From Verrucomicrobiota bacterium (GTDB taxonomy: Bacteria; Verrucomicrobiota; Verrucomicrobiia; Chthoniobacterales; UBA10450): a stretch of 64,000 nt of DNA. The position numbers and the translations under genes are program-made. Under the pieces are notes generated by a model. That model saw only the letters and a program-made list of their open reading frames with translations, had not been told where the DNA came from and searched no databases. This document shows positions 97 through 63,326 of the stretch, in pieces (positions within the stretch are counted from its first letter, which is position 1; every line of letters begins with the position of its first letter). The stretch spans positions 1 through 64,000 of the forward strand of contig QHPX01000147.1 in NCBI GenBank assembly GCA_003219195.1, given 5' to 3'.

Positions 97-123
97 AGGA
101 TCGACATTTGCAAGATCGACGTT
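97..123 (+). repeat. Tandem pair of the dispersed AAGATCGACAAT motif
   Basis: Two near copies lie head to tail, AGGATCGACATT at 97-108 and AAGATCGACGTT at 112-123, with a 15-bp period. The same arrangement occurs at 7176-7202. The first copy contains TCGACA, which could act as a -35 hexamer for the TATAAT at 123-128. Confidence 0.7.
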
Positions 124-128
124 ATAAT
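101..128 (+). promoter_or_regulatory. Candidate sigma-70 promoter ahead of the trp operon
   Basis: TCGACA at 101-106 (one mismatch from TTGACA) and a perfect TATAAT at 123-128 are 16 bp apart. Transcription would begin near 135, upstream of aroF-trpGECFBA, giving a leader of about 180 nt. The -35 box lies within a copy of the dispersed repeat. Assigned from sequence match only. Confidence 0.4.
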
Positions 129-136
129 ATTTGGCA

Positions 137-220
137 ATGAGCACTGACATGCTTTGTTGGACGGACGTGACAACTGGTTGGGGGGCTGTCTCTGCGTCAG
201 CCCCGGTAATGTGGCGATAA
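137..220 (+). CDS. Short ORF with three Trp codons; possible trp leader peptide or VOC relic
   Basis: A 27-codon ORF between the candidate promoter and aroF has Trp at codons 8, 15 and 26, plus a second Met at codon 5. A Trp-rich leader upstream of trp genes and hairpins is what attenuation requires. Against this, the first 8-10 codons and about 35 bp upstream resemble the start of the VOC relic at 7204. The ORF may therefore be the stump of a VOC gene, with Trp8 inherited from it. No convincing Shine-Dalgarno is seen. Confidence 0.3.
   Translation: MSTDMLCWTDVTTGWGAVSASAPVMWR
182..204 (+). promoter_or_regulatory. Leader hairpin upstream of aroF-trp
   Basis: GGGGCTG at 182-188 pairs with CAGCCCC at 198-204 around a 9-nt loop. 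It overlaps the 3' half of the Trp-containing short ORF, so ribosome position could affect its folding. No T-run follows it, so it is not an intrinsic terminator by itself. Confidence 0.35.
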
Positions 221-241
221 AAAGCGACCGTTACTCAACGG

Positions 242-286
242 GACGCTGATTTATCTCTTTGGTCGAAGAGATTTAGTCTTTGCGTC
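242..286 (+). promoter_or_regulatory. Second leader hairpin upstream of aroF
   Basis: ATCTCTT at 253-259 pairs with AAGAGAT at 266-272, and an outer GACGC (242-246) pairs with GCGTC (282-286). The inner stem is followed by a weak T-rich stretch. With the hairpin at 182-204 it could form part of an attenuator, but mutually exclusive folds were not demonstrated. Confidence 0.3.
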
Positions 287-315
287 AATCGAAATAATCC
301 AAGGCTTATAACCAT

Positions 316-1267
316 ATGTTGATTGTGATGAAACCCAGCGCCACCGCGCACGAGGTCGATGCGGTGGTGGGCGTTATCCAAGCAATTGGTCTTCGTGCCC
401 ATCCAATGCCTGGGGCGACGCGGACTGCCATCGGCATTACCGGCAACGAAGGTCCCATCGACGGCCAGCGTTTTGAAAACCTGCCCGGCGTCGCGGAAGT
501 GGTTCGCGTCACCAAACCGTACAAGCTCGTCACGCTCGATCTGCGGCCCGAGAAAACAATCGTGCGAATTGGCGACGCTACCATTGGCGGAAGCGAGTTC
601 GCGATTATCGCGGGACCATGCGCAATCGAGAGTCGCGAGCAGGCGCCCTCGAACTTCGCCCTATTCGTTCCGGGGGTTGGGAGAGAAGGCGTGGGAAATA
701 ATGACGGAAATCCGCGAAACGTTCGGACTCAAGATCGTGACCGAGGCCCTCGATGAAGCCGGTATCGGCCTGATCGAACAGTACGGCGATATCATTCAGA
801 TCGGCGCTCGCAACATGCAGAATTTTCCACTCCTGGAGAGGGCTGGTCGCTCGAAGTTGCCCGTGCTGTTGAAACGCGGGATGGCTGCCACACTCGAGGA
901 ATGGCTCCTCGCAGCCGAATACATTATGGCCGAAGGCAATTACAATGTGGTTCTATGCGAACGAGGTGTGCGAACCTTTGCGCAGCACACCCGGAACACG
1001 CTCGATCTCGCCGCGGTGCCGGCGATTCGCAGCATTTCCCATCTGCCAGTGATCGTTGATCCATCTCACGGCAGCGGCAACACCTACATGGTCACGCCGT
1101 TGGCTCGCGCTGGTGTAGCAGTCGGGGCGGACGGGCTCATGGTCGAAGTTCACAATCATCCAGAACTTGCACTTTCCGATGGCGCACAAGCGCTGACTCC
1201 TTCGCAATATGCGCAGCTCGTGAATGAAGTCCGCGCCATTCGCAAACTTACTTCAGCGGAGGACTGA
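316..1267 (+). pseudogene. aroF: 3-deoxy-7-phosphoheptulonate (DAHP) synthase, internal deletion with frameshift
   Basis: DAHP synthase condenses PEP with erythrose-4-phosphate at the entry to the shikimate pathway, so it fits at the head of a trp operon. The N-terminus ([10 protein letters not shown]...) matches the ferredoxin-like regulatory domain of the Thermotoga-type enzyme and runs in frame 1 to [11 protein letters not shown], codon 110. At about 643-646 the homology jumps to frame 2 at [14 protein letters not shown] and continues to the normal C-terminus ([17 protein letters not shown]). About 20 residues that should hold the RGGAxK part of the PEP site are absent. An upstream AAGG at 301-304 favours the ATG at 316. 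As written the gene cannot give an active enzyme. Either it is a real lesion or an assembly deletion. Confidence 0.85.
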
Positions 1268-1294
1268 CGGCACTCCTCGATCACGTGAAAATCC

Positions 1295-3376: not shown

Positions 3377-4245
3377 ATTCCAAGCAAAATAAGGATGGTT
3401 CGAGGCAAATGAGCAGAACGTTTCTTTCTGAAATCGTCGCGCGAAAGCGACGGACCGTGGCCAAGCTTCGCGCCACCTCCACCGTGGGCGCGCTTCGCGC
3501 GCGCGCCGTCGAGATTCGAAAAAATACTGCCCCGCATCGCTTGTGCGAAGCGCTGAACGCGACGTCTCCCGCTCTCAAAATCATCGCCGAATTCAAACGG
3601 TCTTCACCGTCAGTTGGCATGATTCGGGGTGATCTTTCACCCGCCGATGTTGCTGGTTGTTACGAGCGCGGCGGCGCTTGCGCGATTTCCGTCCTGACCG
3701 ATGAAGAATATTTCAGTGGTTCGATCGACGACCTCAGCGCGATCCGCTCCAGCACGCACCTGCCGGTTTTGCGCAAAGATTTTATTGTCGATCCAATCCA
3801 AATCTACGAAGCGGCCATCGCAGGCGCGGACGCAATACTGCTCATTGTGGCGGCGCTGGACGACAACTCGTTAGGCGAACTGCGCAAAGTGGCTGAAGAC
3901 GAGCTCGGGCTCGATGCGCTCATTGAAGTGCATACGTCGGACGAATTGCGTCGCGCGCTGAAAGTGGGCGCGAGAATCGTTGGTGTAAACAATCGCGATC
4001 TTCAGACGTTTGAAGTTTCACTGAGCACGAGCGAACGCCTGATCGCCGAAGCCCCGCGCGACAGATTGATCCTGAGCGAGAGTGGCCTGCGGGATCCCGA
4101 ACACTTACGTCACCTTCACGCGCTCGGATTTCGTGGTTTTCTAATTGGAGAAGCACTGATGCGCGCGAAAGATCCCGAGACCGCTCTGCGCGATCTGTTA
4201 GCTAATGCTGACGATCGGCAAATCGTGGCTCATGAGACGTCGTGA
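3373..4245 (+). CDS. trpC: Indole-3-glycerol-phosphate synthase
   Basis: Closes the indole ring from carboxyphenylamino-deoxyribulose phosphate. The TIM-barrel shows IIAEFKRSSPS (catalytic Lys), VLRKDFIVDP, LIEVHT, GVNNRDL and LSESGL, all standard TrpC blocks. The 5'-most ATG overlaps the trpE stop (ATGA, 3373). A second ATG at 3409 has GAGG just upstream and gives the more usual N-terminus MSRTFLSEIVARKR, so 3409 may be the true start (278 aa). The gene is separate from trpF, unlike the enterobacterial fusion. Confidence 0.96.
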   Translation: MNSKQNKDGSRQMSRTFLSEIVARKRRTVAKLRATSTVGALRARAVEIRKNTAPHRLCEALNATSPALKIIAEFKRSSPSVGMIRGDLSPADVAGCYERGGACAISVLTDEEYFSGSIDDLSAIRSSTHLPVLRKDFIVDPIQIYEAAIAGADAILLIVAALDDNSLGELRKVAEDELGLDALIEVHTSDELRRALKVGARIVGVNNRDLQTFEVSLSTSERLIAEAPRDRLILSESGLRDPEHLRHLHALGFRGFLIGEALMRAKDPETALRDLLANADDRQIVAHETS

Positions 4246-4246
4246 A

Positions 4247-4900: not shown

Positions 4901-4910
4901 CAATCGATAC

Positions 4911-6134
4911 ATGCAGAGATCGACAATCACCGCGAGCGAGCCGGACGAGGATGGTCACTGGGGCCAGTTCGGCGGCCGTTACGTTCCCGAAACTTTGGTC
5001 GCGCCGCTGGACGAGCTAACGAAAGAGTTCACGCGCGCGAGACATGATGCGGATTTCTGGTGCGAACTTGACCAGCGACTTCGCGATTACTGCGGCCGGC
5101 CAACGCCGCTGTTTCACGCGCAACGGCTGACTGCGCACGCGGGCGGAGCACAAATCTACCTGAAGCGTGAAGATCTTTCCCACACTGGTTCGCACAAGAT
5201 CAACAATGCGATGGGCCAGGCCTTGCTTGCGCGGCGAATGGGCAAGCGCCGCATCATTGCCGAGACTGGCGCAGGTCAGCACGGAGTCGCCACGGCGACG
5301 GTTTGCGCGATGTTTGGATTGCAATGCATCATCTACATGGGCGCAGAAGATATGCGACGGCAGGCGCTCAATGTTTTCCGAATGCGGTTGCTTGGCGCCG
5401 AAGTCGTTGCCGTGAATGCCGGGGCGCGCACGTTGAAGGATGCAATCAATGAGGCGCTGCGCGATTGGGTAACGAATGTGCACGACACCTACTATTTGCT
5501 GGGCAGCGCACTCGGTCCGCATCCCTACCCGCTGATGGTGCGCGAATTTCAGCGCGTAATTGGCCGCGAAGCGCGCGAACAAATTTTGTCGGCCACGGGA
5601 CATTTGCCGCGTGCGCTGATTGCCTGCGTGGGCGGCGGCTCGAATTCCATTGGATTGTTTCATCCTTTCATTGGCGACCAATCTGTTCGACTCATCGGCG
5701 TGGAAGCCGGTGGACGCGCGGATTCGTTAGGCGAACACGCGGCGAGATTTCACACCAGCGTCGCGAGTGGCGGAGGACGCATCGGAGTTTTGCAGGGCAC
5801 CATGTCGTACGTTCTTCAGAACGACACTGGACAAATCGCAACCACCCATTCGATTTCTGCCGGCCTCGATTACGCAGCAATCGGCCCGGAACATGCATTT
5901 CTTCATGACAGCGGACGGGCCGAATACATCTGCGCCAGCGACGCCGAAGCGCTCGAGGGATTCACACTTTGCGCTGAACTGGAGGGTATCATCCCCGCGC
6001 TCGAATCATCGCACGCGATTATACCCGCCGTTCGTATCGCGTGTGAACTGCCACAAAGCGACGCGATCATCGTGAATCTGTCTGGCCGTGGCGACAAAGA
6101 CGTCCAGCTCGTTGCCGAATTATACGTGACGTGA
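4911..6134 (+). CDS. trpB: Tryptophan synthase beta chain
   Basis: PLP enzyme that joins indole (channelled from TrpA) to serine. The 407-aa protein has [10 protein letters not shown] with the Schiff-base Lys96, AETGAGQHG with Glu118, the phosphate-binding GGGSNSIG and the C-terminal SGRGDKD. It is the TrpB1 type that partners TrpA. I selected the ATG at 4911, 10 nt after trpF, because the family starts shortly before [12 protein letters not shown]. Codons 2-6 contain a copy of the dispersed motif (GAGATCGACAAT, 4916-4927). The 3' end overlaps trpA as GTGA. Confidence 0.97.
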
Positions 6135-6922: not shown

Positions 6923-6988
6923 CAGAACGTTCGCAATCCCGCAACGCTCCACTTGCCCTAAACAACTTCAACGCGCTAAGTTCCTCAC

Positions 6989-7177
6989 ATGCGCAGAGTG
7001 GTGAAGTCGGATCAGCGACCTTTGGAAATCAAGCCTCAAGAAGAGTCGGTCTGGATTTGCATGTGCGGCCTTTCCAAAAACCAACCGTTCTGCGATGGAT
7101 CGCACAAAACCACCCGAGACGAGGAAGAAGGCAAGACTTACGAGTACGATGCTGAAGGGCACCGTCACGAAATCTAG
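6989..7177 (+). CDS. CDGSH iron-sulfur domain protein
   Basis: A 62-residue protein with one CDGSH zinc-finger-like motif. Cys24, Cys26, Cys35 and His39 in CMCGLSKNQPFCDGSH are the family's 3Cys-1His ligands for a redox-active 2Fe-2S cluster. No signal peptide or membrane segment is present, so it is probably cytosolic. It stands alone between trpA and a decayed VOC gene, and the context gives no partner. Its precise role (electron transfer or cluster handling) is not known. Confidence 0.88.
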   Translation: MRRVVKSDQRPLEIKPQEESVWICMCGLSKNQPFCDGSHKTTRDEEEGKTYEYDAEGHRHEI

Positions 7178-7202
7178 GATCGACAATTACAAGATCGACA
7201 AT
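7176..7202 (+). repeat. Tandem pair of the dispersed AAGATCGACAAT motif
   Basis: AGGATCGACAAT at 7176-7187 and an exact AAGATCGACAAT at 7191-7202, period 15 bp, directly before the ATG of the VOC relic. Positions 7171-7233 resemble 91-165. Confidence 0.75.
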
Positions 7203-7203
7203 C

Positions 7204-7384: not shown

Positions 7385-7394
7385 TGTTTGACCT

Positions 7395-7841: not shown

Positions 7842-7899
7842 ATTTCGGCGTCAATCGCAATGCCGTTTTGCGCTAAGCGCAACTCTCTAAGAGGAACGT

Positions 7900-10741: not shown

Positions 10742-11662
10742 ATGAAAAAGCTTTTTATCTTGGCGGCGATTTTTGCCGCGGCGGGCACCAGTGCGCTGGC
10801 GGCGCTCGATACGGCGAAGATCGACAATCTCACCGGCCTCAAAGGCAAGCTGAACGAGAAGGAAGGCGTTTACAAAGTCACTTTCCCGCGCGACGACGTG
10901 AAGGTCGTTGTCGATGGATGGACGATGCCGCCATTCATGGGCCTCGGAACCTGGGCGGCGTTCACTGAAACAAAAAGTGGCGCGATGGTGATGGGCGACA
11001 CCGTTCTTTTCGAAGACGAGGTTAACCCCTTAATGTCGGTCGCACTCGACAATGGCCTCAGCGTGACCGCACTGCATAACCATTTCTTCTTTGATCAGCC
11101 GAAAGTTTTTTTCATGCACATCGAAGGCGAGGGCAGTGTTGATAAGCTGGCCGGAGCAGTCAGGAAAATGTACGACACAATCAAATCCATTCGCGGTCCG
11201 AACGCGAAACCAGCAGAGTCATTCACGGAAGTTGGACAGATCCCGCTACCCGAAAAGAATTCAATCACAGCTGGGCCTCTCAACGAAATCTTCGGTATGC
11301 AAGGCGAAGCGAAGGACGGAATGCTGAAGTTCACAATCGGGAAAAAATCCAAAATGCACAGCGTCGAGATTGGTAAGGAAATGGGCGTGAACACGTGGGC
11401 CGCTTTCGCCGGCAGTGATGACAACGCCGTTGTCGATGGAGACTTTGCGGTAACGGAAGATGAACTGCAACCCGCGCTAAAGGCTCTTGGCGTCGGCAAG
11501 ATCGACATTGTCGCGATTCACTCTCACATGACGCACGAAAATCCACGTATCCTGTTTCTGCATTACTGGGGAAGAGGTTCGGCCAAGAAATTGGCCGAAG
11601 CCGTCAAGGGTGCCCTCCTCGTGACTGGATTGTCGGGCGTTACCACGCCGGCGGTGCATTGA
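10742..11662 (+). CDS. DUF1259 (LppY/LpqO-type) secreted protein
   Basis: 306 residues. The signal peptide MKKLFILAAIFAAAGTSALA is followed by two DUF1259 repeats. Each repeat has the pattern GLGTWAAF/GVNTWAAF, a gene-specific DGDxxxxEDE-like stretch and a His-rich block: TALHNHFFFDQPKVFFMH in the first, AIHSHMTHENPRILFLH in the second. The paired His clusters suggest metal binding but this is not established for the family. The Met at 10742 is chosen over the upstream in-frame start because it begins the signal peptide. It lies next to the chrBA locus. Two motif-like words (10817, 11498) occur in the coding sequence. Confidence 0.8.
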   Translation: MKKLFILAAIFAAAGTSALAALDTAKIDNLTGLKGKLNEKEGVYKVTFPRDDVKVVVDGWTMPPFMGLGTWAAFTETKSGAMVMGDTVLFEDEVNPLMSVALDNGLSVTALHNHFFFDQPKVFFMHIEGEGSVDKLAGAVRKMYDTIKSIRGPNAKPAESFTEVGQIPLPEKNSITAGPLNEIFGMQGEAKDGMLKFTIGKKSKMHSVEIGKEMGVNTWAAFAGSDDNAVVDGDFAVTEDELQPALKALGVGKIDIVAIHSHMTHENPRILFLHYWGRGSAKKLAEAVKGALLVTGLSGVTTPAVH

Positions 11663-13415: not shown

Positions 13416-16400
13416 TCAGATTTTTCCGCTCACTCCTCCGTGTTTGCGGCGAGCGATGGAGGGAATGGCATTTACCTGGAACATCGCGAGTAATGCCGGC
13501 AACACGATGAGCACAAGCGGCAGCGAAAAAATCAGTCCCGCAATAATCGCAATCGCCAGCGGTTGCTGCATGGCCGAACCGTGACCGATCCCGAGTGCCA
13601 GAGGCGATAGCGCCAGGATCGCCGCGAAGGCGGTCATCGAAATTGCGCGCATGCGATTGATCCCGGCGAGAACAAAGCGGTCGTCGCTGGCTGGTAGCGC
13701 GCGAAATTCGGAGTAATAGAAAATCGCGATCTCGGTGACAATGCCGACGATCATGGTCATGCCCATGCGCGAGGTGATGTTGAACTCGGTGCCGGTGACC
13801 CATAAGCCGATGAAAACGCCGGCTACGGCAAACAGCGGGACCAGCAACATCGCGATGGCGACCCGGAAACTTTCGTAGAGAAAGAGCAGGAGCAGAAACA
13901 CGAGGAGGATAGCGGCCAGTAAAATGATCGTTAGGCCGCGGAAGGCGATTTGTTGTTGTTCGTAAAGCCCGCCAAAAGTGTAAAGAACGTTGTTTGGAAT
14001 GACGCCGGATTTGGCGAGCGCCCGTTTCACATCGCTCACTGTCGAGCCGAGATCGCGGCCGCTGATGCGCGCGGTCACCGCGACCATGCGCTTCAGATCT
14101 TCCCGCGTGATTTCGGGCTGGCCGCTAAGCGGCACGAGGGTGGCGACGCGTTTGAGTGGAAACAAATGGCCGTCCGGCGCGCGCAATAGGAGATTGTCAA
14201 TGTTGCGCATGGTTTCGCGCACGTCGCGCGGGATCCAAACGCGCACCCCGATCAGTTTTGGTCCCTCTTGAATGCGGGTGGTAACGTTGCCGGCGAGGAA
14301 ATCATTGAGCGCTTTGGTGACCACCTCCGGGTCCATGCCTTCGAGGGCTACCTTGACTCGGTCCACCTCAACGTTGAGAGCATCGCCTGCCGGGACGATG
14401 CCGTTTTTCACTTCGACCACACCGCGAACTTTGGAAATCGTGTCGGCTACTCGCGGCGCCAGCGCGCGCAAAACCGCTTCGTCATCGGAAAAAAGCTTGA
14501 TCTCGATCGGTTGCGGCACGCTCGTGAGATCGCCGATCAAATCTTCCATCAGCTGTAAAAGTTCGATTTGAAGACCCGGCACGTGTTTCTCGACTTCCAT
14601 GCGCACGTCGTCCATCACCTCTTCAATCCCCCGCCGCGGAAACGGCTTCAGACGAATGAAAAAGTCGCCGAAGTTTGCCTCGGTGATCCCGCCACCGAGT
14701 TGCAATCCAGTCCGGCGCGAATAGGTTTGGACTTCAGGCACCTTCTGCAGAATTGACTCCGCCTGTCGCAGCAGACGATCGGTTTCGGCCAGCGAAGTTC
14801 CCGGTGGGGCAATGTAATCGAAAGTGAAGCCGCCCTCATCGATCGTCGGCATAAATCCCGAGCCGATGCTCTTAAATGCAACGAAACCGAGCAGCAACAG
14901 TGGAACTAAAAACACAATTATGAAACGCGGCTGACGAAGAAGCCGCTGCATCTTCTGCCGATAAACTTCGTGCACGCGACGCGTGAAAGCACCGCCCTCT
15001 TCCAGGTCAGCGTCTTTTCTTTTCAACGAGGTCGCGCACAGGATTGGCACGGCCAGCCACGCCACGATGAAGGAGATGATGAGACTCGCCGCCATTGTCA
15101 GGGAAAGAGATTTGAAAAATGCGCCGGTGACACCGGTTAGGAATGCGAGCGGCGTGAAAATAATGATCGTCGCCGCAGAAGAACCAACCAGCGGGTTAGT
15201 GAATTCTCGGGCGGCGCTCAGCACGCGCGAATGCGGATCGCCTTCGCGCCCGCCACGGACTCGCCGGACGATATGTTCCACCATCACAATCGCGTCATCA
15301 ATAATCAGGCCCACGGCCGCGGCCATGCCGCCGAGCGTCATGATGTTGAAACTCATTTTCAGGACATAGAGCAGCAGGATCGTAGCGGCGAGCACGGCCG
15401 GCACCGTCAAGATCGCGATCAATGTGACTTTCCAGTCGCGGAGAAAAATGAGCAGAACGAATGCGGCCAGAACCATGCCGATCAGGATTGCGTCGCGCGT
15501 GCTATGTTCCGACGCGATGATGAGATCGCTTTGGTCATACCAGTCGGCGAGCTTCACTCCGTCGGGAATCTGTTTTTTTATCTCGCGCAATTTCGCCTTG
15601 ATGCCGTGGGCGATTTCCACTGTATTTCCAGACGGCTGCTGGTAAACTTGAAAAAGGACCGCGTCGTGGCCGTCGGCCGTAACACGAATCCATTGTGGCT
15701 CGGATGAATGCTCCACCGTGGCCACATCATCCAGCAAAACCACGCCATCGGGTGTCGAGCGCAGGACCGTGTGCTCGATTTGCTCGAACTTTTTGAAACG
15801 TGTGTCCGAAACAACGAGGTAAAGTTTGTCGTACTGTTCAAGCCGCCCGACTGCGACCAGAACGTTCGAGGCTGAAAGCGCGCTGGCCACTTCGGCTAGC
15901 GTCATCTTGAACGATTGCAATTTGTCTGGATCGACGGTGACCCGGTACTCTTCGACGCGCCCGCCTTGAACGCCGACGCGCGCGACTCCGGAAACCGTGG
16001 AAAGCGCCGGACGCAGAGTGTAGAGGGCGAGATCACGCAGCTCGACGAGCGAATGCGAATCGGAGGTGAGGCTGTAGGCGATCACCGGAAAGACCGTGGG
16101 ATCCATGCGCTCGACTTCGAACGAAGTGCCGGACGGCAGGCTCGGCAGAATCTTGTTCACCTGCGATTGGCATTGGAGCATGTCCGACACCATGTCTTCG
16201 CCCCAGGTGAAGTTGATGGAAATTTCCGCCGTCCCGCGACTAGTTGTCGATCTTACGTTTCGCACACCCGGAATGGCACGCACCGCTTCCTCCACCGGCG
16301 TGGTGACTTCGACTGCCATTTGCTCGGCTGGACGATCACCAGCATCGAGAGTGACGCGGACGCGCGGGAAACTTACCTGCGGGAAAAGTGCGACCGGTAA

Positions 16401-16493: not shown

Positions 16494-17551
16494 TTTTTTA
16501 TTGTTACCGCCATGCCCTCCTCCAGCTCGTAATTGCCTATGGTCACGACCGGATCACCTTCGTGCAGATCTTCCGCGATCAGCTGCACTTCTCTTGGATT
16601 TTCCGCGCCGATTTTAACGGTGTGCCTGATCGCGCGATTATTTGCCACCGTGAACACTTCGTATTCGCGGGACTCGTTAGGCAAAATGGCCGAGCGTGGC
16701 ACAACCAGCGCGTCTTTTTCGGTACGCTGGATCTCGCCGCGCACATAGCCATCCAGTAACAGCTTCGTTCCTTCCGGCAGCGCTACGTAAACATCGACAA
16801 GTCGCGTGGCCGGATCGACGCGCTGCGTCACCAGGCGGATGGAGCCTTCGACTTTGGCAGCGGTTGGATCATTCACCGGGAAGATCGTAATGGCCGCTCC
16901 ATTCTGCGCGGCCGAAAGATCTTCCGGTTCCATGCCGAGTTTTACTTCAATTTCATTTTCGGCGACAATTTCAACAAGCGGACTTCCGGCAACAACGATC
17001 TGCCCGTCTTGCACATTCACTTTGGCAACCACGCCCGCCATGTCGGATCGAATGCGGTTATCACCTCCGGCGCCGGCGCGTTGCAAAGTGGTGAGCTGCG
17101 CTTCCGCGTCGCGCGCCGTTTTTTCCGCCGCGCTCAAGTCCTGATTTGTGGCGAGCTTCAAATTGAAACGCTCTTGCGTTTGTTTGAGTTCTTTCCGGGC
17201 GGCTTCCTCGGCGTTCTTCGCCTGTTGAAATTGAAGTTGCGCCGCCGGGCTCAGCTCGATTTCGGTTAAAGGATCGTTCTCTTGCACGAACTGACCAGGC
17301 GCGACGAGAATGTGTTGCACACGCGTTTCGAAGGCCACTGAGATGGAATGTGTCTTACCAGGCTGCGCGATCACGCTCCCGTAAACAATCACTTTTTCGC
17401 TGATCGTTTTCCGTTCCACTTTCGCCACCTGCACTTGCGCAACCGGTCCGCTCGTTTTCTCCTCGCCGCCGGTGCGGAATCGTTGCACGAGATAAGCAAG
17501 CCCGGCGACGATGAGGATGACGATCGCAGTGATGAAGATTCGCTTTTTCAT
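16490..17551 (-). CDS. RND efflux periplasmic adaptor (membrane fusion protein)
   Basis: 353 aa. An N-terminal anchor (KKRIFITAIVILIVAGLAYLV) is followed by the HlyD-like barrel-sandwich hybrid (IAQPGKTHSISVAFETRV, LVAPGQFVQENDPL), an alpha-hairpin (about 105-165, with a coiled-coil pattern) and beta-barrel/MP domains ending VVTIGNYELEEGM. It links the inner-membrane pump to the outer-membrane factor. It overlaps the pump (ATGA) and the TolC homologue by 4 bp each, so the three are one operon. Confidence 0.92.
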   Translation of the reverse strand: MKKRIFITAIVILIVAGLAYLVQRFRTGGEEKTSGPVAQVQVAKVERKTISEKVIVYGSVIAQPGKTHSISVAFETRVQHILVAPGQFVQENDPLTEIELSPAAQLQFQQAKNAEEAARKELKQTQERFNLKLATNQDLSAAEKTARDAEAQLTTLQRAGAGGDNRIRSDMAGVVAKVNVQDGQIVVAGSPLVEIVAENEIEVKLGMEPEDLSAAQNGAAITIFPVNDPTAAKVEGSIRLVTQRVDPATRLVDVYVALPEGTKLLLDGYVRGEIQRTEKDALVVPRSAILPNESREYEVFTVANNRAIRHTVKIGAENPREVQLIAEDLHEGDPVVTIGNYELEEGMAVTIKK

Positions 17552-23220: not shown

Positions 23221-23646
23221 TCAACGGCGCAACAAGAAGAGTCCGACGATTGCCAGGGTTACGCCGAGCAGGCGTTGCCATGAAGCCGGTTCGCGGAAAA
23301 ACAAAATCCCGGCGATCGCCATGATGGCGGCGCCGCCCGCGAGAATCGCGGGAACGGAAGAGAGTGGTCCGCCTTTTTGAAAGAGGAGGAAAAACGCGAT
23401 CGTGCCCGCGCCGACGCAAATTCCGGTGACCACCGAGTAATTGAAACCAGGCATGCTGAATTTTTGGTTCCAGCGCCCGCTTAGCCAGAGAAACGCGAGA
23501 TAAAGCAAGATCGACAATGCCGCGCTGGCTTCGACGACGAAGCCGCCGAGTCCGTCGCTTATTCGTTCTGCGGCGAGGCGGGTAAAAATTTGGTGCGCTC
23601 CATAGAGGACTGCTGCTACAACTGCATACCAAAACCACGGAGCCAC
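23221..23646 (-). CDS. EamA/DMT-family transporter, half-size (four-helix) form
   Basis: 141 aa with four hydrophobic helices: WFWYAVVAAVLYGAHQIFT, ALSILLYLAFLWLSG, VVTGICVGAGTIAFFLLFQ and AILAGGAAIMAIAGILFF, ending LGVTLAIVGLFLLRR. It is one EamA domain, the usual size of small multidrug-resistance-like DMT proteins, which act as dimers. The start is 16 bp from the divergent ChrB-C gene. The coding sequence contains an exact copy of the dispersed motif (23507-23518) translated as part of LSIL. Substrate unknown. Confidence 0.8.
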   Translation of the reverse strand: MAPWFWYAVVAAVLYGAHQIFTRLAAERISDGLGGFVVEASAALSILLYLAFLWLSGRWNQKFSMPGFNYSVVTGICVGAGTIAFFLLFQKGGPLSSVPAILAGGAAIMAIAGILFFREPASWQRLLGVTLAIVGLFLLRR

Positions 23647-25326: not shown

Positions 25327-25670
25327 CAATGACTCGCATCGCAGCTGCCCTTTGCTTTCTCGCGGTTGCGCTTGGAGCATTTGGCGCGCACGCGCTAAGA
25401 TCGACAATCGAAAGTCACGGCATGGCCGATGCCTGGGACAAGGCAGTGCTCTATCATTTCGTTCACGCCATCGCACTCTTGGTGCTGGCGTTGTACGCCG
25501 GCGCAAATCGCGGCGCGTGGTGGTTGCTTTTCGCCGGCATTTTTCTTTTCAGCGGAAGTTTGTACACGATGGCGCTGACAAATTTGCGCTGGCTCGGCGC
25601 AATCACACCGCTCGGCGGTCTTTGTTTCCTTGCCGGCTGGGCGTGGCTGATGATCGCGCACGCAAAGTAA
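25323..25670 (+). CDS. DUF423 (YgdD-type) small membrane protein
   Basis: 115 aa with four hydrophobic segments and the family opening FLAVALGAFGAHAL, then YHFVHAIALLVLAL, GIFLFSGSLYTMAL and ITPLGGLCFLAGWAWL. The ATG at 25323 overlaps the MFS stop (ATGA); a second ATG lies at 25329. Function unknown. An exact copy of the dispersed motif (25397-25408) encodes RSTI within the first loop, where relatives vary. Location is presumed inner membrane. Confidence 0.85.
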   Translation: MTMTRIAAALCFLAVALGAFGAHALRSTIESHGMADAWDKAVLYHFVHAIALLVLALYAGANRGAWWLLFAGIFLFSGSLYTMALTNLRWLGAITPLGGLCFLAGWAWLMIAHAK

Positions 25671-28209: not shown

Positions 28210-28404
28210 CTTATTGCCCGTCTCGTTCGCGGAATAATCGGCAGCTTAGGAGCGCTTTTTGCGAGGCGAGTTTCGGATGGCCGGCGAGCGCTAAAAGAAT
28301 CGCCAGCTTCGACGACAAGATCGACAATCGCGCTTTGGCCGCGTTGCGAAGTTAGCCTTTGCCAGCGGGCCAATTCTTCATAAAGTCGTGCGCTTTATTG
28401 CGCA
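28210..28404 (+). other. 195-bp intergenic region with one exact dispersed motif
   Basis: No supportable gene. It contains AAGATCGACAAT at 28317-28328. One frame reads KRIASFDDKIDNRALAALRS to a stop near 28355, which could be a gene tail, but no family is recognised. Confidence 0.4.
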
Positions 28405-30488: not shown

Positions 30489-30532
30489 AAGATCGATATC
30501 TGTTAAGATCGACAATCGGCAAGATCGACATG
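30489..30532 (+). repeat. Triple array of the dispersed motif
   Basis: AAGATCGATATC (30489), exact AAGATCGACAAT (30505-30516) and AAGATCGACATG (30521-30532), each 16 bp apart, fill the hppA-to-next-gene spacer. The last copy provides the ATG (30530) of the following gene. Confidence 0.8.
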
Positions 30533-44876: not shown

Positions 44877-45440
44877 TTAGGCATTCGGTGTCCCCGATTT
44901 ACGGTTCCCGGACGATTTCTCGGCATAGCGCGCAAGGATCCAGCAAAGGTCGGAAAGGCGATTGAGATAGCGCAAAATCTCTGGGTTGAAATCTTTTTCA
45001 TCGACAATCAACATCGCGACACGTCGCTCAGCCCGCCGGCAAGTTGTCCGAGCGAAATCAAGCGCAGCGGAAACGGGGACTGCGCCGGGAATCACCCAGT
45101 CTTTCGGATAAAGCGATTTATCTTTTTCAAGATCGACAATTATCGCTGTGACTCGATCAACCATCTCCCCGCTGGTTAGCTGAAATCCTTCTTTGACGTA
45201 ACGTTGTCGATCTTGCGGTGCAGTGGCGAGTTCACCCATCAGGATGATTAATTCTTTTTGCACAGCGAAAATGCGCTCCGAAACAAATTTTTCACTGCAA
45301 ATCGACCGCGCGAAACCAAGCGCGGCATTCAGCTCATCGACGCAGCCATAAGCGTCGACGCGCGGATTGGCCTTCGAAAGCCGGCGCCCGTACATAAGCG
45401 AGGTTTCGCCTTTGTCGCCGGTTTTCGTCACGATCGACAT
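44877..45440 (-). CDS. Cob(I)alamin adenosyltransferase (PduO/ATR type)
   Basis: Adenosylates cob(I)alamin to coenzyme B12. 187 aa. The N-terminal ATP-binding block is TKTGDKGETSLMYGRRLSK, with VDAYGCVDELNAALGFAR. The C-terminal catalytic helix RRAERRVAML and LRYLNRLSDLCWILAR are signatures of the PduO-type enzymes. No B12 riboswitch was recognised upstream. Two motif copies are in the coding sequence (45129-45140 exact; 45203-45214), translated in different frames as IVDL and DRQR. The substrate pathway it feeds is not in the window. Confidence 0.9.
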   Translation of the reverse strand: MSIVTKTGDKGETSLMYGRRLSKANPRVDAYGCVDELNAALGFARSICSEKFVSERIFAVQKELIILMGELATAPQDRQRYVKEGFQLTSGEMVDRVTAIIVDLEKDKSLYPKDWVIPGAVPVSAALDFARTTCRRAERRVAMLIVDEKDFNPEILRYLNRLSDLCWILARYAEKSSGNRKSGTPNA

Positions 45441-45557: not shown

Positions 45558-49682
<4,125 letters not shown>

Positions 49683-49698: not shown

Positions 49699-49710
49699 AT
49701 TGTCGATCTT
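49699..49710 (-). repeat. Exact dispersed motif in the rpoB-rpoC spacer
   Basis: AAGATCGACAAT on the minus strand, inside the 32-bp gap between rpoB and rpoC and upstream of the rpoC GGAG. This is the only exact copy in minus orientation. Confidence 0.75.
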
Positions 49711-49714: not shown

Positions 49715-52700
49715 TTAAGCCACGTTTTCGAGGAAACTGCTCGGGGCCTGACCGCCGACTTTGACGTCGAGACCGAGGCTTTGCATTTCCTTAATCAGCA
49801 CGTTGAAAGATTCAGGCGTGCCCGCTTCGAGCGAGTTGTCGCCTTTGACGATGGATTCGTAGATGCGCGTGCGGCCCTGCACGTCGTCAGACTTCACGGT
49901 GAGCAATTCCTGCAATGTGTAAGCCGCGCCGTAGGCTTCCAGCGCCCACACTTCCATCTCTCCGAAACGCTGCCCGCCATATTGCGCCTTGCCACCGAGC
50001 GGCTGCTGCGTCACGAGCGAGTACGGACCAACCGCGCGCGCGTGGATTTTGTCTGCGACCAGATGGCCGAGCTTCATCATGTAGATGTAGCCAACCACAA
50101 CTTCCTGATCGAAAGCATCGCCAGTGCGGCCGTCGAACAGGCGCGCTTTGCCATTTTCCTGGATCCAACTGAAGCCTTCCTTTTTGCGCGCTTCTTTCAG
50201 GTAATCGCGGATTTTACTTTCCTTAATGCCATCGAAAACCGGCGTCGCGACTTTGAATCCGAGCGCTTTCGCCGCAACGCCAAGATGCGTCTCGAGGACC
50301 TGGCCGACATTCATTCGGCTCGGCACGCCAAGCGGATTGAGCACAATCTCCACCGGTGTTCCGTCGGCGAGGAATGGCATGTCTTCTTCGGGTACAATGC
50401 GCGCGACAACCCCCTTGTTTCCGTGGCGTCCGGCCATCTTGTCGCCGACGCTCAACTTGCGCTTGCTTGCGATGTAAACTTTGACCTGCTTGATAATGCC
50501 GGGATCGATGTCGTCTCCGCTTTCGACGCGATCCATCGAGCGCTCGCGTTCGAGTTCAAGCTCGGCGAACTTATGTTCGTAGGAAGCGATGATCTCCCGG
50601 ATCTTGTTGCGGATCGGGCTCGGGTCGATCTCGATATGGCCGTAAACGTTGGCCAGTTTGCGCAGCAGCGTCTTGGTGATTTTGCGATTGGCCGGAATGA
50701 TGATCTCGCCCGTCACAGCATTGACAACATCGAGCGGAATTTTTTCGCCCAGCAAAATATTCGAGAGCGAATCAGTCAGTTGCTCGGTCAATTCTTCTTT
50801 CTTTCTGCGATGATCTTCGGTGATCGCTTTGAGCTGCTTTTTCGTTTCCGTCGGTGTGAGTTTCTCGCGCGAAACTTCGCGGCGTGATGAAACTTTCACA
50901 TCCATGACAATTCCATAAGTGCCCGACGGCACAGTGAGCGACGTGTCTTTCACATCGGCAGCTTTTTCGCCAAAAATCGCGCGCAGCAGGCGTTCTTCCG
51001 GGGCAAGCTCGGTCTCGCTCTTGGGCGTGATTTTACCGACGAGGATATCGCCCGGCTTCACTTCCGCGCCGACACGCACGACGCCATCAGAGCCGAGGTT
51101 GCGCAGCGCTTCTTCACTGACATTCGGAATGTCGCGGGTGATCTCTTCCGGGCCGAGCTTCGTATCGCGCGCGCCAATTTCAAATTCGTCGATGTGAATG
51201 GACGTGTAGATGTCCTCTTTCACGACCTTCTCCGAGATCATGATCGCGTCTTCGAAGTTGTAACCGTTCCACGGCATGAACGCGACGAGCACATTGCGCC
51301 CGAGGGCGAGCTCGCCCTGATCGGTATTCGGACCGTCGGCGATGATCTGTCCCTTTTTCACATGCTGACCTTTGTGGACAATCGGCTTCTGATTGACGCA
51401 CGTGCCGGCGTTTGAACGCATGAATTTTCGCAGTTCGTAAACGTGAACCCCGGCTTCCGCATCCGTCTTTAACTTTCTTTTTCCTTCCGGCAGATGCCCG
51501 TCTTTGGTGACAATAATGTGGTCCGCCGTGACCGAAGCGACCTTGCCACTTTCGGTGGCGAGAACGACGGCATGTGAGTCGCGCGCCACTTTTGCTTCCA
51601 GGCCGGTTCCCACCAGCGGCGTCTCCGAAACAATGAGCGGAACACCCTGCCGTTGCATGTTGGAACCCATCAGCGCCCGGTTCGCGTCGTCATGTTCCAG
51701 AAAAGGAATGAGCCCGGCCGCGACTGAGACAAGTTGTTTCGGCGACACATCCATGTAGTGCACCTTGGCCGGGTCGACTTCGAGAAAGTCGCCTCGATAG
51801 CGCACCGAAACTTTCTCGCCCGTAAAATGTCCTCGACCATCAATCGGCGCATTCGCCTGCGCGACAAGAAAATTTTCCTCGCGATCGCCCGTGAGGTAAT
51901 CAACCTGGTCCGTTACGCGGCCCTTCTCGACCTTTCGATACGGCGTCTCGATGAAACCAAACTCATTGATGCGCGCGAACGTGCTCATCGAGCTGATCAG
52001 GCCAATGTTCGGACCTTCCGGCGTTTCGATCGGACAAATCCGCCCGTAATGCGACGGATGAACATCGCGCACTTCGAATCCGGCGCGATCACGCGAAAGG
52101 CCACCCGGCCCGAGTGCTGACAAACGACGTTTGTGTGTCAACTCGGCAAGCGGATTTGTTTGATCCATGAACTGCGAAAGCTGGGAACGACCGAAGAAAT
52201 CGCGGATGACCGCGCTCAGCGCCTTCGGGTTGATCAGCTTTTGCGGCGTCATCCCATCGACGTTGATGTCAAACAGCGTCATGCGTTCCTTAACAAGACG
52301 CTCGGTGCGCGCGAGACCGACGCGGCATTGGTTGGCGAGCAATTCGCCGACCGTGCGCACGCGACGGCTCCCGAGATGATCGATGTCGTCGAGCGTGCCT
52401 TCGCCGCGGCGCAGGTTGATCAAATACTTGATCGCGGCAATGAAATCCTTGTCCGTTAAAATGCGCTCGCCAAGATCGACATCGAGACCAAGTTTCTGGT
52501 TGATCTTGTAACGGCCAACGCGACCGAGATCCTCCTGATCGTGCGCCGGATCTTTTCGGAGCGCTTTCACCACCGTGTCGTCGTGTGAAATATCGATGAC
52601 TTTAACCTCGCGAATTTTCAGACCCATGATCTGACGAACTGTCGCCAGAGTGAGCGGTTCGAAGGCGCGCGCGACCGTGACTTCGCCGTCGCGGATTTCC

Positions 52701-54753: not shown

Positions 54754-54757
54754 ATCA

Positions 54758-55459: not shown

Positions 55460-55713
55460 GATCTCGTGCAGTCCAAGCGCCCCTCCCACTTGTTTTCAAG
55501 TCGCGAGGCTCCTGCTTAAAATTTTGGCCACTCGGCTGAGCGGCGGGACGTGGAAACTAGCGGCATTCTTGGCATTGTCAAAGCCAACTTCATCCCGATA
55601 AAACGAGCTGTTATGAAACATCGTTCTATGCGCACGCTGCTTAAATCGGTGGCACGAATTCTCGCGCGGCTAAGATCGACAATTACCGCTGCGCGGATTG
55701 TCAACTCGTCTTG
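55460..55713. other. 254-bp gap between rplA and an amidohydrolase gene
   Basis: No gene. It must contain a promoter for the rplA block, since the upstream gene is 250 bp away, but no clear consensus was found. An exact dispersed motif lies at 55672-55683. Confidence 0.5.
55672..55683 (+). repeat. Exact dispersed motif between rplA and the amidohydrolase gene
   Basis: AAGATCGACAAT, plus orientation, 31 bp from the amidohydrolase stop. Confidence 0.75.
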
Positions 55714-57111
55714 TTAATCGGCGGGCAGGTCTACGTCGTCATCCTGCGCGGCGGCTGTTCGCGGAGTGGCCGGGCCGTTGCGAATGATCTTGCCGTCCTT
55801 CATGACGAATGAAACGCGCTCCGTCGCGGTAATGTCAGCTGTGGGATCGCCCGGCATCGCGACGATGTCGGCACGTTTTCCTTTTTCAAGCGTGCCAACG
55901 GCTTGCGCGATGCCTAACAAATCCGCGTCATTCGAAGTTCCACTTCTTAACGCATCGATCGGTTGCATGCCCAGGCCCACCATCAAGGCAAATTCCTTCG
56001 CGTTGTCGCCGTGCGGAAAAACTCCCGCGTCCGTCCCGAGCGCGATCTTCACGCCCATCTTCACCGCATTACGAAACATTTCCGAGCGCGCCGCGCCTGC
56101 GGCCTTTGCTTTTGCCTGCAACGCCAGCGGATAACTGTCGATCTTGCTCATGATGTATTCCGTCGCCATCAACGTGGGCACGAGATAAGTGCCTTTCCTT
56201 TTCATTAATTGCAGCGTCTCCGGTTTCATAAACGAACCGTGCTCGATGGAGTCCACACCTGCTTCGATCGCTTCCCGCGCCGCTTGGTCGCCGTGACAAT
56301 GCACCGCCACTTTTTTGCGCAGACGATGCGACTCATCGACCAGCGCCGCCATTTCCGCCGGCGTCAACTGCGGAGTGTCCACTTCATCGGCGAGGGAGAG
56401 CACGCCGCCCGAGACCGCGGCTTTAATCACATTCGCACCGTTCTTGACTTCGAATCGAACCGCTTTGCGAATTTCGTCGGGACCATCGGCGATGCCTTCA
56501 CTCGGGTCCGGTTCGCGTCCGAAAAGTTTGTCACGATAACCGCCGGTCGAATCAAAATGGCCGCCGGTCGCGCCGATGCCTTTGGTCGCCACGAGCATGT
56601 GCGGGCCGGGAGTGATTCCGTGATTGATCGCATTGCGCAGCGCAACATCGACAAATTCCGGACTGCCGGCGAAACGGCTGCCGAGATCGCGCACCGTCGT
56701 GAAACCCGCCTCGAGCGTCGCGCGCGCATAGGCAATCGCCATCAACGCCATCTCTGAAACATTGGTTTGAAATTCTTTCAGGCGCTTCTCGTTGAAATTG
56801 CCGGTGAAATCGAGGGTGAGATGGGTATGCGCGTCCATGAATCCTGGCGAAAGCGTCATGTCGCCAAGATCGATCACCTGCGCGCCGGCAGGAATCGCAA
56901 CGTTGCTGCCTGAATCGACAATCTTATCGCCCTGCACGATCACGACGCCGTTTTGCACAAGCGCTTTCGATTTTCCATCGAACATCCGCGCCGCTTTCAG
57001 CACGACGGTTTGATCGGCCGCGCTGATAGAAATTGCGCAGACCAGAAAAACAAACGCTGCAAGAACAAATCGAACGCAAGATCGACAATGAACCCTTTGG
57101 GAGATCTTCAT
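55714..57111 (-). CDS. Secreted metal-dependent amidohydrolase
   Basis: 465 aa from ATG 57111. A basic N-terminus and hydrophobic signal (RFVLAAFVFLVCAISISAAD) are followed by an amidohydrolase-superfamily TIM barrel. Metal and catalytic elements: MDAHTHLTL (HxH), VIKAAVSGG (candidate carbamylated Lys), KVAVHCHGDQ, SIEHGSF and LGTDAGVFPHGDN. It matches imidazolonepropionase-like or Xaa-Pro dipeptidase-like secreted hydrolases of environmental bacteria. The exact motif (57078-57089) is inside the signal peptide coding region. Substrate may be a cyclic or peptide amide. It is divergent from the DUF885 gene. Confidence 0.83.
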   Translation of the reverse strand: MKISQRVHCRSCVRFVLAAFVFLVCAISISAADQTVVLKAARMFDGKSKALVQNGVVIVQGDKIVDSGSNVAIPAGAQVIDLGDMTLSPGFMDAHTHLTLDFTGNFNEKRLKEFQTNVSEMALMAIAYARATLEAGFTTVRDLGSRFAGSPEFVDVALRNAINHGITPGPHMLVATKGIGATGGHFDSTGGYRDKLFGREPDPSEGIADGPDEIRKAVRFEVKNGANVIKAAVSGGVLSLADEVDTPQLTPAEMAALVDESHRLRKKVAVHCHGDQAAREAIEAGVDSIEHGSFMKPETLQLMKRKGTYLVPTLMATEYIMSKIDSYPLALQAKAKAAGAARSEMFRNAVKMGVKIALGTDAGVFPHGDNAKEFALMVGLGMQPIDALRSGTSNDADLLGIAQAVGTLEKGKRADIVAMPGDPTADITATERVSFVMKDGKIIRNGPATPRTAAAQDDDVDLPAD

Positions 57112-57158: not shown

Positions 57159-58904
57159 TTGACAAGAAGAGCGCTTTTCGGCAAACCGGCACAGATGCCA
57201 CGGATGCTTTCCCTAAAGACCGCATCGGCTGCGCTGTTTCTGTTTTTGTTCACAGCAGCGCCGGATGCGCACGGGCAAAAGCAGACGGCTGGCCCAGATA
57301 TTAGTTCTCTCGACAAGCTCGCCGACGACTTTTGGGCTTGGCGTGTGAAGTATGCGCCGTTCAATGGCGATGACGTGCCGCGAATGGAGCGGCCGGCCGG
57401 GACGCGCGATTGGTCGCTAGCTAAGATCGACAATCGGCGAAAAGATCTCAATGCGTTCGAGGCGCGCTGGAAAAAGCTCGATGTCAGTGAATGGCCAGCT
57501 CCGAAGCAGGTCGATTACCGGCTGATCGGTTCTGCCTTGTCGCGGGTGCGCTGGGAATTGGAAATCAATTCGCGTTGGAAGCGCGATCCCAACTTTTACA
57601 TCGAGCAAACGCTTACGCCTATCGTCGAAGCGCTCACCGTGCCGGGCCCGTACAACGCAGCTCAATCTCGCGAGATTCTGACGCGCGTCGAAAACATTCC
57701 GTCGATCGTGCAGCAGAGCGAAGAGAATCTCTCGAATCCACCGGCGCCTTTCGCGACTGTGGCGATTGAAGCACTGGACGGCGTGCGAGAGCGCCTGCAA
57801 AAAATGGCGGCCGCACTGCTAGGATCGACAACTCTCAAAGAGCAGGAGTTGAACAGCGCAGTCCAACGCTCGGCCGACGCGCTCGAAAAGTTTCGACAGC
57901 AGCTTGAGGAAAAATTGCCGTCGCTTCCAAAAGAAACGGCGCTTGGTCGCGACGCTTATGTCTTCTTTCTCAAAAACGTGGCGCTGCTTCCCTACTCGCC
58001 GGAGGAACTTCTCGCGATGGGTCAGCAGGAGTGGAATCGCGCAGTCGCGTTTGAGGCATACGAAACGCAACGAAACAACGACGTACCGCCTCTCAAGCTG
58101 GCGACGAACATCGACAGTTGGATCAAGGATATCGCGATAAAAGAATTGTCGATCCGCGAATTTCTCGACAAGCATGGCATTCTCACCGTCCCCGATTGGC
58201 TTCAGCATTACACGCTGCGTCCAATGCCGGAATATTTGCGCGCGTTGCAAGGCTTCGGCGAAATGGATGACTTCACTTCACCGTCGCGATTGAAAGAGAA
58301 CTGCATCCGCTATGCGACCGAACCTTCAGCGAACCTCGGTTACTTCTGGCGCGCGACTGCGCAGGATCCGCGGCCGATCACTGTTCACGAAGGAATTCCC
58401 GGCCATTATTTTCAGCTTTGTCTCTCGTGGAAACACGAAGACCCGATCCGGCGGCATTATTACGACTCGGGCGCGAACGAAGGGATCGGCTTTTACGCGG
58501 AGGAAATGATGTTGCAGGCCGGTCTGTTCGACGACAGCCCGCACACACGCGAGATCATTTACAATTTCATGCGTCTGCGCGCACTCCGCGTGGAAGTGGA
58601 CGTGAAACTCGCGCTCGGCCAGTTCACGCTTGAGCAAGCCGCAAAATATTTGCAGGAAAAAGTGCCGATGGACGTAAACACCGCGCGCCAGGAAGCGATC
58701 GCTTTCTCAACCGGCCCCGGTCAGGCCATCACCTATCAGATCGGCAAACTCCAGATCATGAAATTCCTGGCCGAAGCGCGCTTGCAGCAGGGCGAAAAAT
58801 TTAACCTCCGCGCCTTCCACGATTTCGTCTGGAAAAACGGCAACGTCCCAATCGCGTTGCAGCGCTGGGAATATCTCGGCGCAGGTGATGAAGCTCAAAA
58901 ATAA
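57159..58904 (+). CDS. DUF885 secreted zinc-metallohydrolase-like protein
   Basis: 581 aa in the longest form (TTG). An ATG at 57195 or 57204 gives a proper signal peptide (MLSLKTASAALFLFLFTAAP). The C-terminal DUF885 domain has the HExxGH-type metal motif HEGIPGHYFQ and the distal Glu block NEGIGFYAEEM. Family members act as carboxypeptidase-like or peptide hydrolases. Divergent from the amidohydrolase across 83 bp, so both may be expressed together for amide or peptide turnover. Motif copies lie at 57423 (exact, KIDN) and 57821. Confidence 0.83.
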   Translation: MTRRALFGKPAQMPRMLSLKTASAALFLFLFTAAPDAHGQKQTAGPDISSLDKLADDFWAWRVKYAPFNGDDVPRMERPAGTRDWSLAKIDNRRKDLNAFEARWKKLDVSEWPAPKQVDYRLIGSALSRVRWELEINSRWKRDPNFYIEQTLTPIVEALTVPGPYNAAQSREILTRVENIPSIVQQSEENLSNPPAPFATVAIEALDGVRERLQKMAAALLGSTTLKEQELNSAVQRSADALEKFRQQLEEKLPSLPKETALGRDAYVFFLKNVALLPYSPEELLAMGQQEWNRAVAFEAYETQRNNDVPPLKLATNIDSWIKDIAIKELSIREFLDKHGILTVPDWLQHYTLRPMPEYLRALQGFGEMDDFTSPSRLKENCIRYATEPSANLGYFWRATAQDPRPITVHEGIPGHYFQLCLSWKHEDPIRRHYYDSGANEGIGFYAEEMMLQAGLFDDSPHTREIIYNFMRLRALRVEVDVKLALGQFTLEQAAKYLQEKVPMDVNTARQEAIAFSTGPGQAITYQIGKLQIMKFLAEARLQQGEKFNLRAFHDFVWKNGNVPIALQRWEYLGAGDEAQK

Positions 58905-60760: not shown

Positions 60761-60763
60761 AAT

Positions 60764-60779: not shown

Positions 60780-60799
60780 TTGATGCAATAGAGAAGTTG

Positions 60800-60914: not shown

Positions 60915-60919
60915 AGAAA

Positions 60920-61900: not shown

Positions 61901-61975
61901 AGTTGGTCGAGGGGATTACGCTTAACGAATTATTCGAATTGCGCTGACAGATAATCCGCTCGACGAAGGAGAATC

Positions 61976-62401
61976 TTAATCGACGATTTCGAGGCCCATT
62001 TGGCGGGCGGTGCCGGCGATGATGCGGAAGGCGGCTTCGTCATCGCGCGCATTCAGGTCTTTGGCTTTCGTTTTCACGATGTCCATGACTTGTTTGCGCG
62101 TGACTTTGCCGACTTTCTCTTTGTTCGGCTCTTTTGACCCAGCGGCGATGTTGGCGGCCTTCTTCAACAGGACGGCGGCGGGCGGACTTTTGGTGATGAA
62201 GGTAAACGACTTGTCTTTGAAGACGGTGATTACGACCGGCAAAATGTCGCCGGCTTGTTTCTGAGTGGCGGCATTAAATTCTTTGCAAAACGCCATGATG
62301 TTGACGCCACGCGGTCCGAGCGCGGTGCCGACAGGCGGCGCCGGATTCGCCTGACCGGCAGGAATCTGCAACTTGATTTGAGCAACTACTTCTTTGGCCA
62401 T
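61976..62401 (-). CDS. rplK: 50S ribosomal protein L11
   Basis: 141 aa. [59 protein letters not shown] and [13 protein letters not shown] define L11, which binds the GTPase-associated rRNA. nusG precedes it on the same strand. rplA, normally next, is missing here: 6.5 kb of other genes follow. Confidence 0.97.
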
Positions 62402-62505
62402 GTTCTTAATTTAAGATTTCAAATCTCAAATTGCAGGATTGAAAGAAAGCGCACTCCAAGACCGACATCTTCAATTTGCAATCTGAAATCTGCAATTTGC
62501 AATTC
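62402..62505. repeat. AT-rich direct-repeat stretch between rplK and nusG
   Basis: Repeated variants of AATTTGCAATCTGAAATC and TTTCAAATCTCAAATTGC occupy about 100 bp. The region is AT-rich, unlike its surroundings. A short similar string (GTCAGATTTCAGATTTCGC) is at 34911. It may be a small repeat family or a spacer with structural role. Confidence 0.5.
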
Positions 62506-63075
62506 CTACCCTCTTTCCACCTGCCAGTATTCGAGTTCGACCGGTGTGGCGCGCCCGAAGATGGTGACGGAGACGCGGAGTTTGCCGCGCTCGGGATCGA
62601 TTTCCTCGACGATGCCGTTCTGATTTTGAAATGGGCCATCGGCGACCTTGACGGTTTCGCCCACTTCGAAGCTGACTTTCGGTTTCACCTTTTCTTCGCG
62701 CTCTTTCATTTGCGCGAGCATGTTGTCCACTTCGGATTGGCGCATCGGGATCGGTTTGTCCTTCGTGCCGGCAAAACCGATCACGCCGGGTGTGTCGCGA
62801 ATGAAATACCAGGTGCGCCCGACGAGCTGATTGTTTTCATCGAGCAAATGCATGTTCACGATCAGGTAACCGGGGAAAAATTTGCGCGTCGTCTCGCTTT
62901 TCTTGCCCTTTTTGATTTCCGAGACGCGCTCCGTCGGGACGAGCACTTCGTAAATCAAATCGCTCATCTCCTCGGTCTTGATGCGTTTCTCGATGTTCTC
63001 CTTCACTTTGTTTTCCTGGCCGGAGAGCACGTGCACGACGAACCATTGATCTTTTGCTGCGAGCGCTTGTCCCAT
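62506..63075 (-). CDS. nusG: Transcription termination/antitermination factor NusG
   Basis: 189 aa. NGN domain (WFVVHVLSGQENKVKENIEK, LVPTERVSEIKKGKKSETTR, FPGYLIVNM) and a C-terminal KOW domain (FEVGETVKVADGPFQNQNG). It binds RNA polymerase and couples it to the ribosome or Rho. Placed after secE in the standard order. Confidence 0.97.
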   Translation of the reverse strand: MGQALAAKDQWFVVHVLSGQENKVKENIEKRIKTEEMSDLIYEVLVPTERVSEIKKGKKSETTRKFFPGYLIVNMHLLDENNQLVGRTWYFIRDTPGVIGFAGTKDKPIPMRQSEVDNMLAQMKEREEKVKPKVSFEVGETVKVADGPFQNQNGIVEEIDPERGKLRVSVTIFGRATPVELEYWQVERG

Positions 63076-63077
63076 AA

Positions 63078-63296
63078 TCAGTGCAACCGGGTAAAGAAGT
63101 GGACGAAATTGACGAGAACGAAATCGAAGAGCGCAACGTAACCGCCGAGCAGCAGCATCGCGATGATGACAACCAGCGTTGAGTCAGTCAGTTCCTTGTA
63201 GCGGCGGACTCCTTTTTCCTTCGATTCCCATGGCCAGGAAGCTTTTTGGAGCTCGATCTTCACTTCGTTAAAAAAGTTTTTCGTCTTTGTGATCAC
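63078..63296 (-). CDS. secE: Preprotein translocase subunit SecE
   Basis: 72-aa single-helix form. VKIELQKASWPWESK is the cytosolic amphipathic helix and STLVVIIAMLLLGGYVALFDF the membrane helix. It completes SecYEG. tRNA-Trp and tuf lie upstream and nusG follows 2 bp after its stop. Confidence 0.95.
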   Translation of the reverse strand: MITKTKNFFNEVKIELQKASWPWESKEKGVRRYKELTDSTLVVIIAMLLLGGYVALFDFVLVNFVHFFTRLH

Positions 63297-63301
63297 GGTG
63301 A

Positions 63302-63326
63302 GATGTCGATCTTGTAATTGTCGGTC
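63302..63326 (-). repeat. Dispersed motif copy plus degenerate second copy, secE-tRNA-Trp spacer
   Basis: Minus-strand AAGATCGACATC (63313-63302) preceded by a degenerate CGACCGACAAT (63326-63316). The pair occupies the spacer between tRNA-Trp and secE. Confidence 0.6.

Follow-up and report, generated by a model that had tools for sequence, protein, structure and literature searches.

Two unrelated dispersed words as candidate uptake sequences in one family of Chthoniobacterales

Dispersed words in the window and the genome

The window (i.e., the whole stretch of 64,000 nucleotides analysed here) carries two short, dispersed and mutually unrelated DNA words, henceforth word A and word B, which lie both in spacers and inside genes, with one copy of word A in rpoC (Table 1). 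It comes from a genome of 2.82 Mb in 183 contigs that is 87% complete (G000); the bacteria concerned are uncultured and were read from metagenome assemblies (Spartobacteria MAGs).

The original prediction described word A as a 12-mer, AAGATCGACAAT, with about 38 copies in the window. We found 12 exact copies, all at the positions predicted, and a total of 30 when up to one mismatch is allowed, versus 0.44 ± 0.67 in shuffled sequences; several of the remaining copies listed carry two mismatches, and the one placed in the TyrRS gene (37284) is present with one mismatch. The whole genome holds 441 exact copies of AAGATCGACAAT, 220 forward and 221 reverse, and the plus-strand bias that had been read from the window (11:1 among its exact copies) is thus a local fluctuation.

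The word is better described as a unit of 10–11 bases, AAGATCGACA followed by A or T, than as a 12-mer. Exact copies of the 10-mer core number 28 in the window, versus 0.24 expected. Specifically, under a third-order Markov model we observed 258 copies versus 3.4 expected in 422 kb of the own genome and 576 versus 4.2 in 361 kb of a related genome, G142 (about 1.6 per kb), with both counts taken from stretches (~420 kb and ~360 kb, respectively) in which word density is a little above that of the genome as a whole. The ratio of observed to expected copies was 77–138, with the 138-fold excess in G142, and density ranged from 0.6 to 1.6 per kb. As the original prediction implied, the word is therefore far above the Markov background; its copies are spread over many contigs, and dozens of related genomes have it too. 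In a logo of all GATCGACA sites in 422 kb of the own genome, information was nearly confined to positions -2 to +8, which read AAGATCGACA and then A or T. Within the word, copies mismatched in the inner ATCGA were scarce (at or slightly above expectation), and the outer bases were tolerant, as seen in copies with one mismatch.

Word B (GCCTAACGA) had escaped the original prediction. By k-mer count, CCTAACGA occurred 290 versus 15 times in G142 and 45 versus 1.5 times in 60 kb of G144, while GCCTAACGA reached 4605 copies in G147, 2754 in G146, 2147 in G141, 1980 in G144 and 1802 in G142, so that words A and B co-occur at high density in the last of these genomes. The inner bases TAAC of word B are strict. 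We considered an origin of word B as an integron attC site, given the similar core GTTAGGC, and ruled it out since its copies are single and not paired.

Table 1. Positions of word A and word B sites in the window.
Feature	Position	Strand	Context
Word A direct pair, 15 bp apart	97..123	+	One mismatch each
Word A direct pair, 15 bp apart	7176..7202	+	Spacer 3' of a gene; second copy exact
Word A exact 12-mer	10817..10828	+	Within DUF1259 protein gene
Word A exact 12-mer	23507..23518	+	
Word A exact 12-mer	25397..25408	+	Lost in G149 through one synonymous change
Word A exact 12-mer	28317..28328	+	Spacer before H+-pyrophosphatase gene
Word A, three direct copies, 16 and 16 bp apart	30489..30530	+	Spacer; first with one mismatch, others exact 10-mers
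Word A exact 12-mer	41892..41903	+	
Word A exact 12-mer	45129..45140	+	
Word A 10-mer	47196..47205	+	Within rpoC
Word A exact 12-mer	49699..49710	-	Spacer directly upstream of rpoC
Word A 10-mer	52472..52481	+	Within 1236-aa gene adjoining rpoC (probably rpoB, judged by position)
Word A exact 12-mer	55672..55683	+	
Word A exact 12-mer	57078..57089	+	
Word A exact 12-mer	57423..57434	+	Within DUF885 protein gene
Word A direct pair, 15 bp apart	63302..63328	-	One exact 10-mer, one degenerate
Word B GCCTAACGA	3868..3876	-	
Word B GCCTAACGA	5724..5732	-	
Word B GCCTAACGA	13928..13936	-	Within AcrB-type gene
Word B GCCTAACGA	16674..16682	-	

Placement, pairing and turnover of word sites

Both words were found mostly inside genes (80–90% of copies) and in either orientation. 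Genic copies of word A were divided between sense and antisense as 105:114 in the own genome and 219:239 in G142, and those of word B as 150:112 in G142. Word A uses all six reading frames, one of them rarely, which agrees with the earlier observation of several frames; word B occurs in all four frames in which it reads through without a stop, and in no others. There was also no strand skew in contiguous stretches (167:152 for word A over 200 kb of G142).

Copies of word A also form same-strand pairs. We found 31 pairs with starts 15 bp apart and 13 with starts 16 bp apart in 361 kb of G142, where the density of the word gives an estimated chance of about 0.5 per spacing, and 7 and 5 such pairs, respectively, in the stretches of the own genome. 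These direct pairs occur in genes and spacers alike, some of them near gene ends, and inverted pairs of word A showed no enrichment. Membership of the direct pairs in a longer element was rejected, as their flanks show no conservation. In one stretch of G142, a predicted protein (6641–8737) starts with MKIDNDKIDNH, an N-terminus that appears to be a translated direct pair.

To follow the fate of individual sites, we used alignments of about 158 kb between the own genome and three genomes of the same genus (83–95% identical). The core of word A was shared at 119 sites, found in the own genome only at 35 and in the relative only at 34, meaning that 63% of sites (119/188) were shared, compared with 33% (197/603) for permuted words of equal composition (Fisher p ~2e-13; the sites are not fully independent, since the own genome is common to all three comparisons). 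Sites are thus kept at about twice the rate of permuted words, which, together with the near-equal use of sense and antisense, upholds the claim that selection (or drive) acts on DNA and not on protein. Among the 69 differences in the core, 46 were single substitutions, so that the word is gained and lost mainly by point changes, and one-step changes of the 10-mer were synonymous in 17 cases, non-synonymous in 9 and intergenic in 4. For word B, an 8-mer was common to 6 of 15 aligned sites within the window's genus, near background in this small sample, which would suit a word that is fading there.

DNA that congeners also possess had a word density of 1.02 per kb, versus 0.50 in unshared DNA, of which there was only 6 kb. 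Identity rose marginally near words (89.5% versus 88.6% elsewhere), an effect too small to be used as a sign of recombination. As a separate observation, when positions 1–60000 of the window were compared with G149 and G150, identity jumped between about 66–75% and 90–98% in adjacent stretches, which suggests mosaic recombination or gene replacement.

Spread across the family and the transformation machinery

A search of named genomes with the pair pattern led mainly to Spartobacteria/Chthoniobacterales metagenome assemblies (e.g., JAJPGZ01, Centralia_MAG_126; UBA10877; AV isolates), with matches elsewhere being scattered, single and at about the chance rate; viral contigs gave six word hits, which is compatible with chance. 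Across 213 genomes of the order, word A was enriched only in the window's family (which, as a guess, may be that of Candidatus Udaeobacter); its counts in the remaining families of Chthoniobacterales were those expected by chance. It was present in genera g1, g2, g3, g4, g11, g12, g14 and, weakly, g5, with the number of exact 12-mers per genome reaching 1285 in G142.

By comparison, an excess of GCCTAACGA extended to almost all of the family, and every other family of the order had few copies. Genus g1 had 82–134 copies, versus 37–60 for the reversed word, and no excess of word B was seen in G143 (g12). Genus g5 holds few copies of either word, with its 2–20 exact word A 12-mers being nevertheless above chance, and favours a related form, CTAACGAG (18 versus 1.4), along with an excess of GCTAACGA; these two forms may possibly represent a dialect of word B.

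Samples of 20–60 kb from eight genomes that belong to the order but not to this family contained no comparable dispersed word. Repeats of other kinds were seen among the relatives: G190, from another family, has a local repeat family, ACTCCGGCAC/GTGCCGGAGT, with 8 copies in 20 kb (C1:1–20000), and in G126 CGGGATGAC/GTCATCCCG is over-represented at two loci only and is probably a local repeat.

In a ComEC tree of 27 family members and five outgroups, all sampled genera bearing word A (g1, g2, g3, g4, g11, g12 and g14) formed one clade (support 100/99), and word B ran through the family. The simplest reading would be that word B is older, that word A arose once and that G142 retains both; we infer this order of origin from the tree of a single gene with several weak inner forks.

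The competence and pilus genes expected of a transformable organism were found, i.e., ComEC, DprA, pilus-type ATPases and pilins. ComEC was detected in 76 of 83 family genomes (in a three-domain form in G142), and each of six genomes examined had DprA, 8–11 T2SSE-type ATPases and 8–17 pilin-like proteins. ComEC was also found in word-free families, and ComEC, DprA and pilus genes were equally present in the A-free genera of the family. Considering this, we dropped ComEC presence as a discriminator of word-bearing genomes, being uninformative when found almost everywhere: the machinery permits transformation and does not explain which genomes carry words. Among 83 pilin-like proteins from the six genomes (the own genome being incomplete), none was restricted to word-A genomes as a group.

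Uptake words and alternative explanations

We consider it likely that word A (AAGATCGACA with a final A or T) and word B (GCCTAACGA) serve natural transformation as uptake words in this one family of Chthoniobacterales. A pilus-borne DNA receptor would prefer word-bearing DNA, fragments with the word would be taken up and recombined more often, and the words would accumulate and be renewed by molecular drive, with the result that the cell would mainly acquire DNA from its own kind. Word B would then be the older preference of the family and word A one that arose at the base of a single sub-clade; most species of that sub-clade have few B words, and G142 is dense in both. In our judgement, a non-polar, dispersed, substitution-driven, strict-core and clade-limited pattern, in combination with the machinery, fits uptake words better than other known classes. 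The original reading of an uptake-like word is thus supported, with its function being one that we infer from sequence.

The main rival takes the words to be sites bound by a protein that organises, repairs or segregates the chromosome (Chi-, KOPS- or matS-like, or bound by a nucleoid protein), so that selection would act on the chromosome itself. Selection or drive clearly acting on DNA rather than protein would be expected in this case too, as would an even genome-wide spread (copies of word A in G142 are spaced a little more evenly than at random, CV 0.78–0.84), and the direct pairs at 15–16 bp could fit a protein that binds DNA cooperatively. Chi and KOPS are likewise short, over-represented genic words, but they are strand-polar along the replichore, whereas words A and B are strand-symmetric, as seen for word A genome-wide and also over stretches of 200 kb. 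Such sites are also far sparser than the 0.6–1.6 copies per kb of word A, and a conserved chromosome protein would not usually show a clade-specific turnover of unrelated words. This turnover and the balance between strands thus speak against this rival, which we regard as unlikely.

Transcription-factor sites, terminators or epigenetic (methylation) marks are a more doubtful proposition still. Word A contains GATC and is about twofold enriched in the spacers of G142 (which make up 8% of the DNA and contain 16% of the copies), and some pairs lie near gene ends, but the great majority of copies are genic and stand in either orientation. Terminators would need inverted pairs, which show no excess, and methylation targets are not normally multiplied to thousands of copies. 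HIP1 of cyanobacteria is a very abundant dispersed octamer with GATC that is kept in genes; it is palindromic (GCGATCGC), while words A and B are not, and we know of no link between HIP1 and uptake.

A mobile or self-copying short repeat (e.g., REP/MITE-like or similar to the RPE of Rickettsia) is very improbable. Although the direct tandem pairs suggest some local duplication, conservation stops at the edges of the word, where flanking information falls to near background and no longer repeat is present, as the original prediction required of a true word. Orthologous sites differ mainly by single substitutions, with an indel involved in only 6 of 69 differences, and the copy within rpoC leaves the frame undisturbed.

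Finally, base composition, codon bias or a protein motif (KIDN) can be excluded as the cause: the commonest frames of word A do read Lys-Ile-Asp (sense 0) and Val-Asp-Leu (antisense 2), but the reversed word has 0 copies in the genome versus 441, the excess persists under a third-order Markov model, sense and antisense are used equally, and related genera and families lack the word.

If the words do act in uptake, as we prefer, they belong to a class so far known only from Neisseriaceae and Pasteurellaceae (PMC12616744). Word A resembles the DUS of Neisseriaceae in its continuous form, its length of about 10–12 bp and its copy number, which runs from hundreds to thousands, spread over genes and spacers alike. 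Further shared traits are a strict inner core, clade-specific forms and the presence of ComEC, DprA and type IV pilus parts in the genomes. By contrast, the words themselves are unrelated and come from another phylum, and two of them occur in one family and even in one genome. DUS come in eight dialects with the inner core CTG (PMC12616744), which is the core of GCCGTCTGAA-type words and is absent from both strands of AAGATCGACA and GCCTAACGA. DUS-type dialects keep a common core, and the two dense, unrelated words of G142 depart from that. Known uptake words frequently form inverted repeats with a terminator role (PMC12616744), unlike the direct pairs found here. Both departures count against the uptake reading, as do the competence genes shared with word-free genera, the pilin comparison that gave no candidate specific to the word-A clade, and the marginal rise in identity near words. 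Similarly to the USS of Pasteurellaceae, the words are dispersed at similar density on both strands and inside genes (in part from PMC12616744). The USS, however, has AT-rich flanks over about 32 bp, whereas nearly all information in word A lies within 11 bases, and its inner core is GCGG, as opposed to ATCGA in word A and TAAC in word B.

The open-access literature (subscription papers and preprints lay outside the search) contained nothing on word A or B among the matches listed, and nothing linking uptake words with Verrucomicrobiota beyond one passing co-mention. As far as this literature shows, uptake-type words would thus be new outside the two known families. On balance, we lean towards the view that uptake words arose here independently for a third time, and for the first time outside Pseudomonadota. 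The family would have switched from GCCTAACGA to the unrelated AAGATCGACA, with G142 surviving as a two-word genome and with direct double words 15–16 bp apart.

If this is correct, DNA self-labelling for transformation would have evolved at least three times, frequent natural transformation would be indicated in soil Verrucomicrobiota, and G142 would need either two receptors or one receptor with two specificities. The family offers two unrelated words, many species with differing amounts of each and one genome rich in both, which would make it directly testable how a receptor comes to prefer another word.
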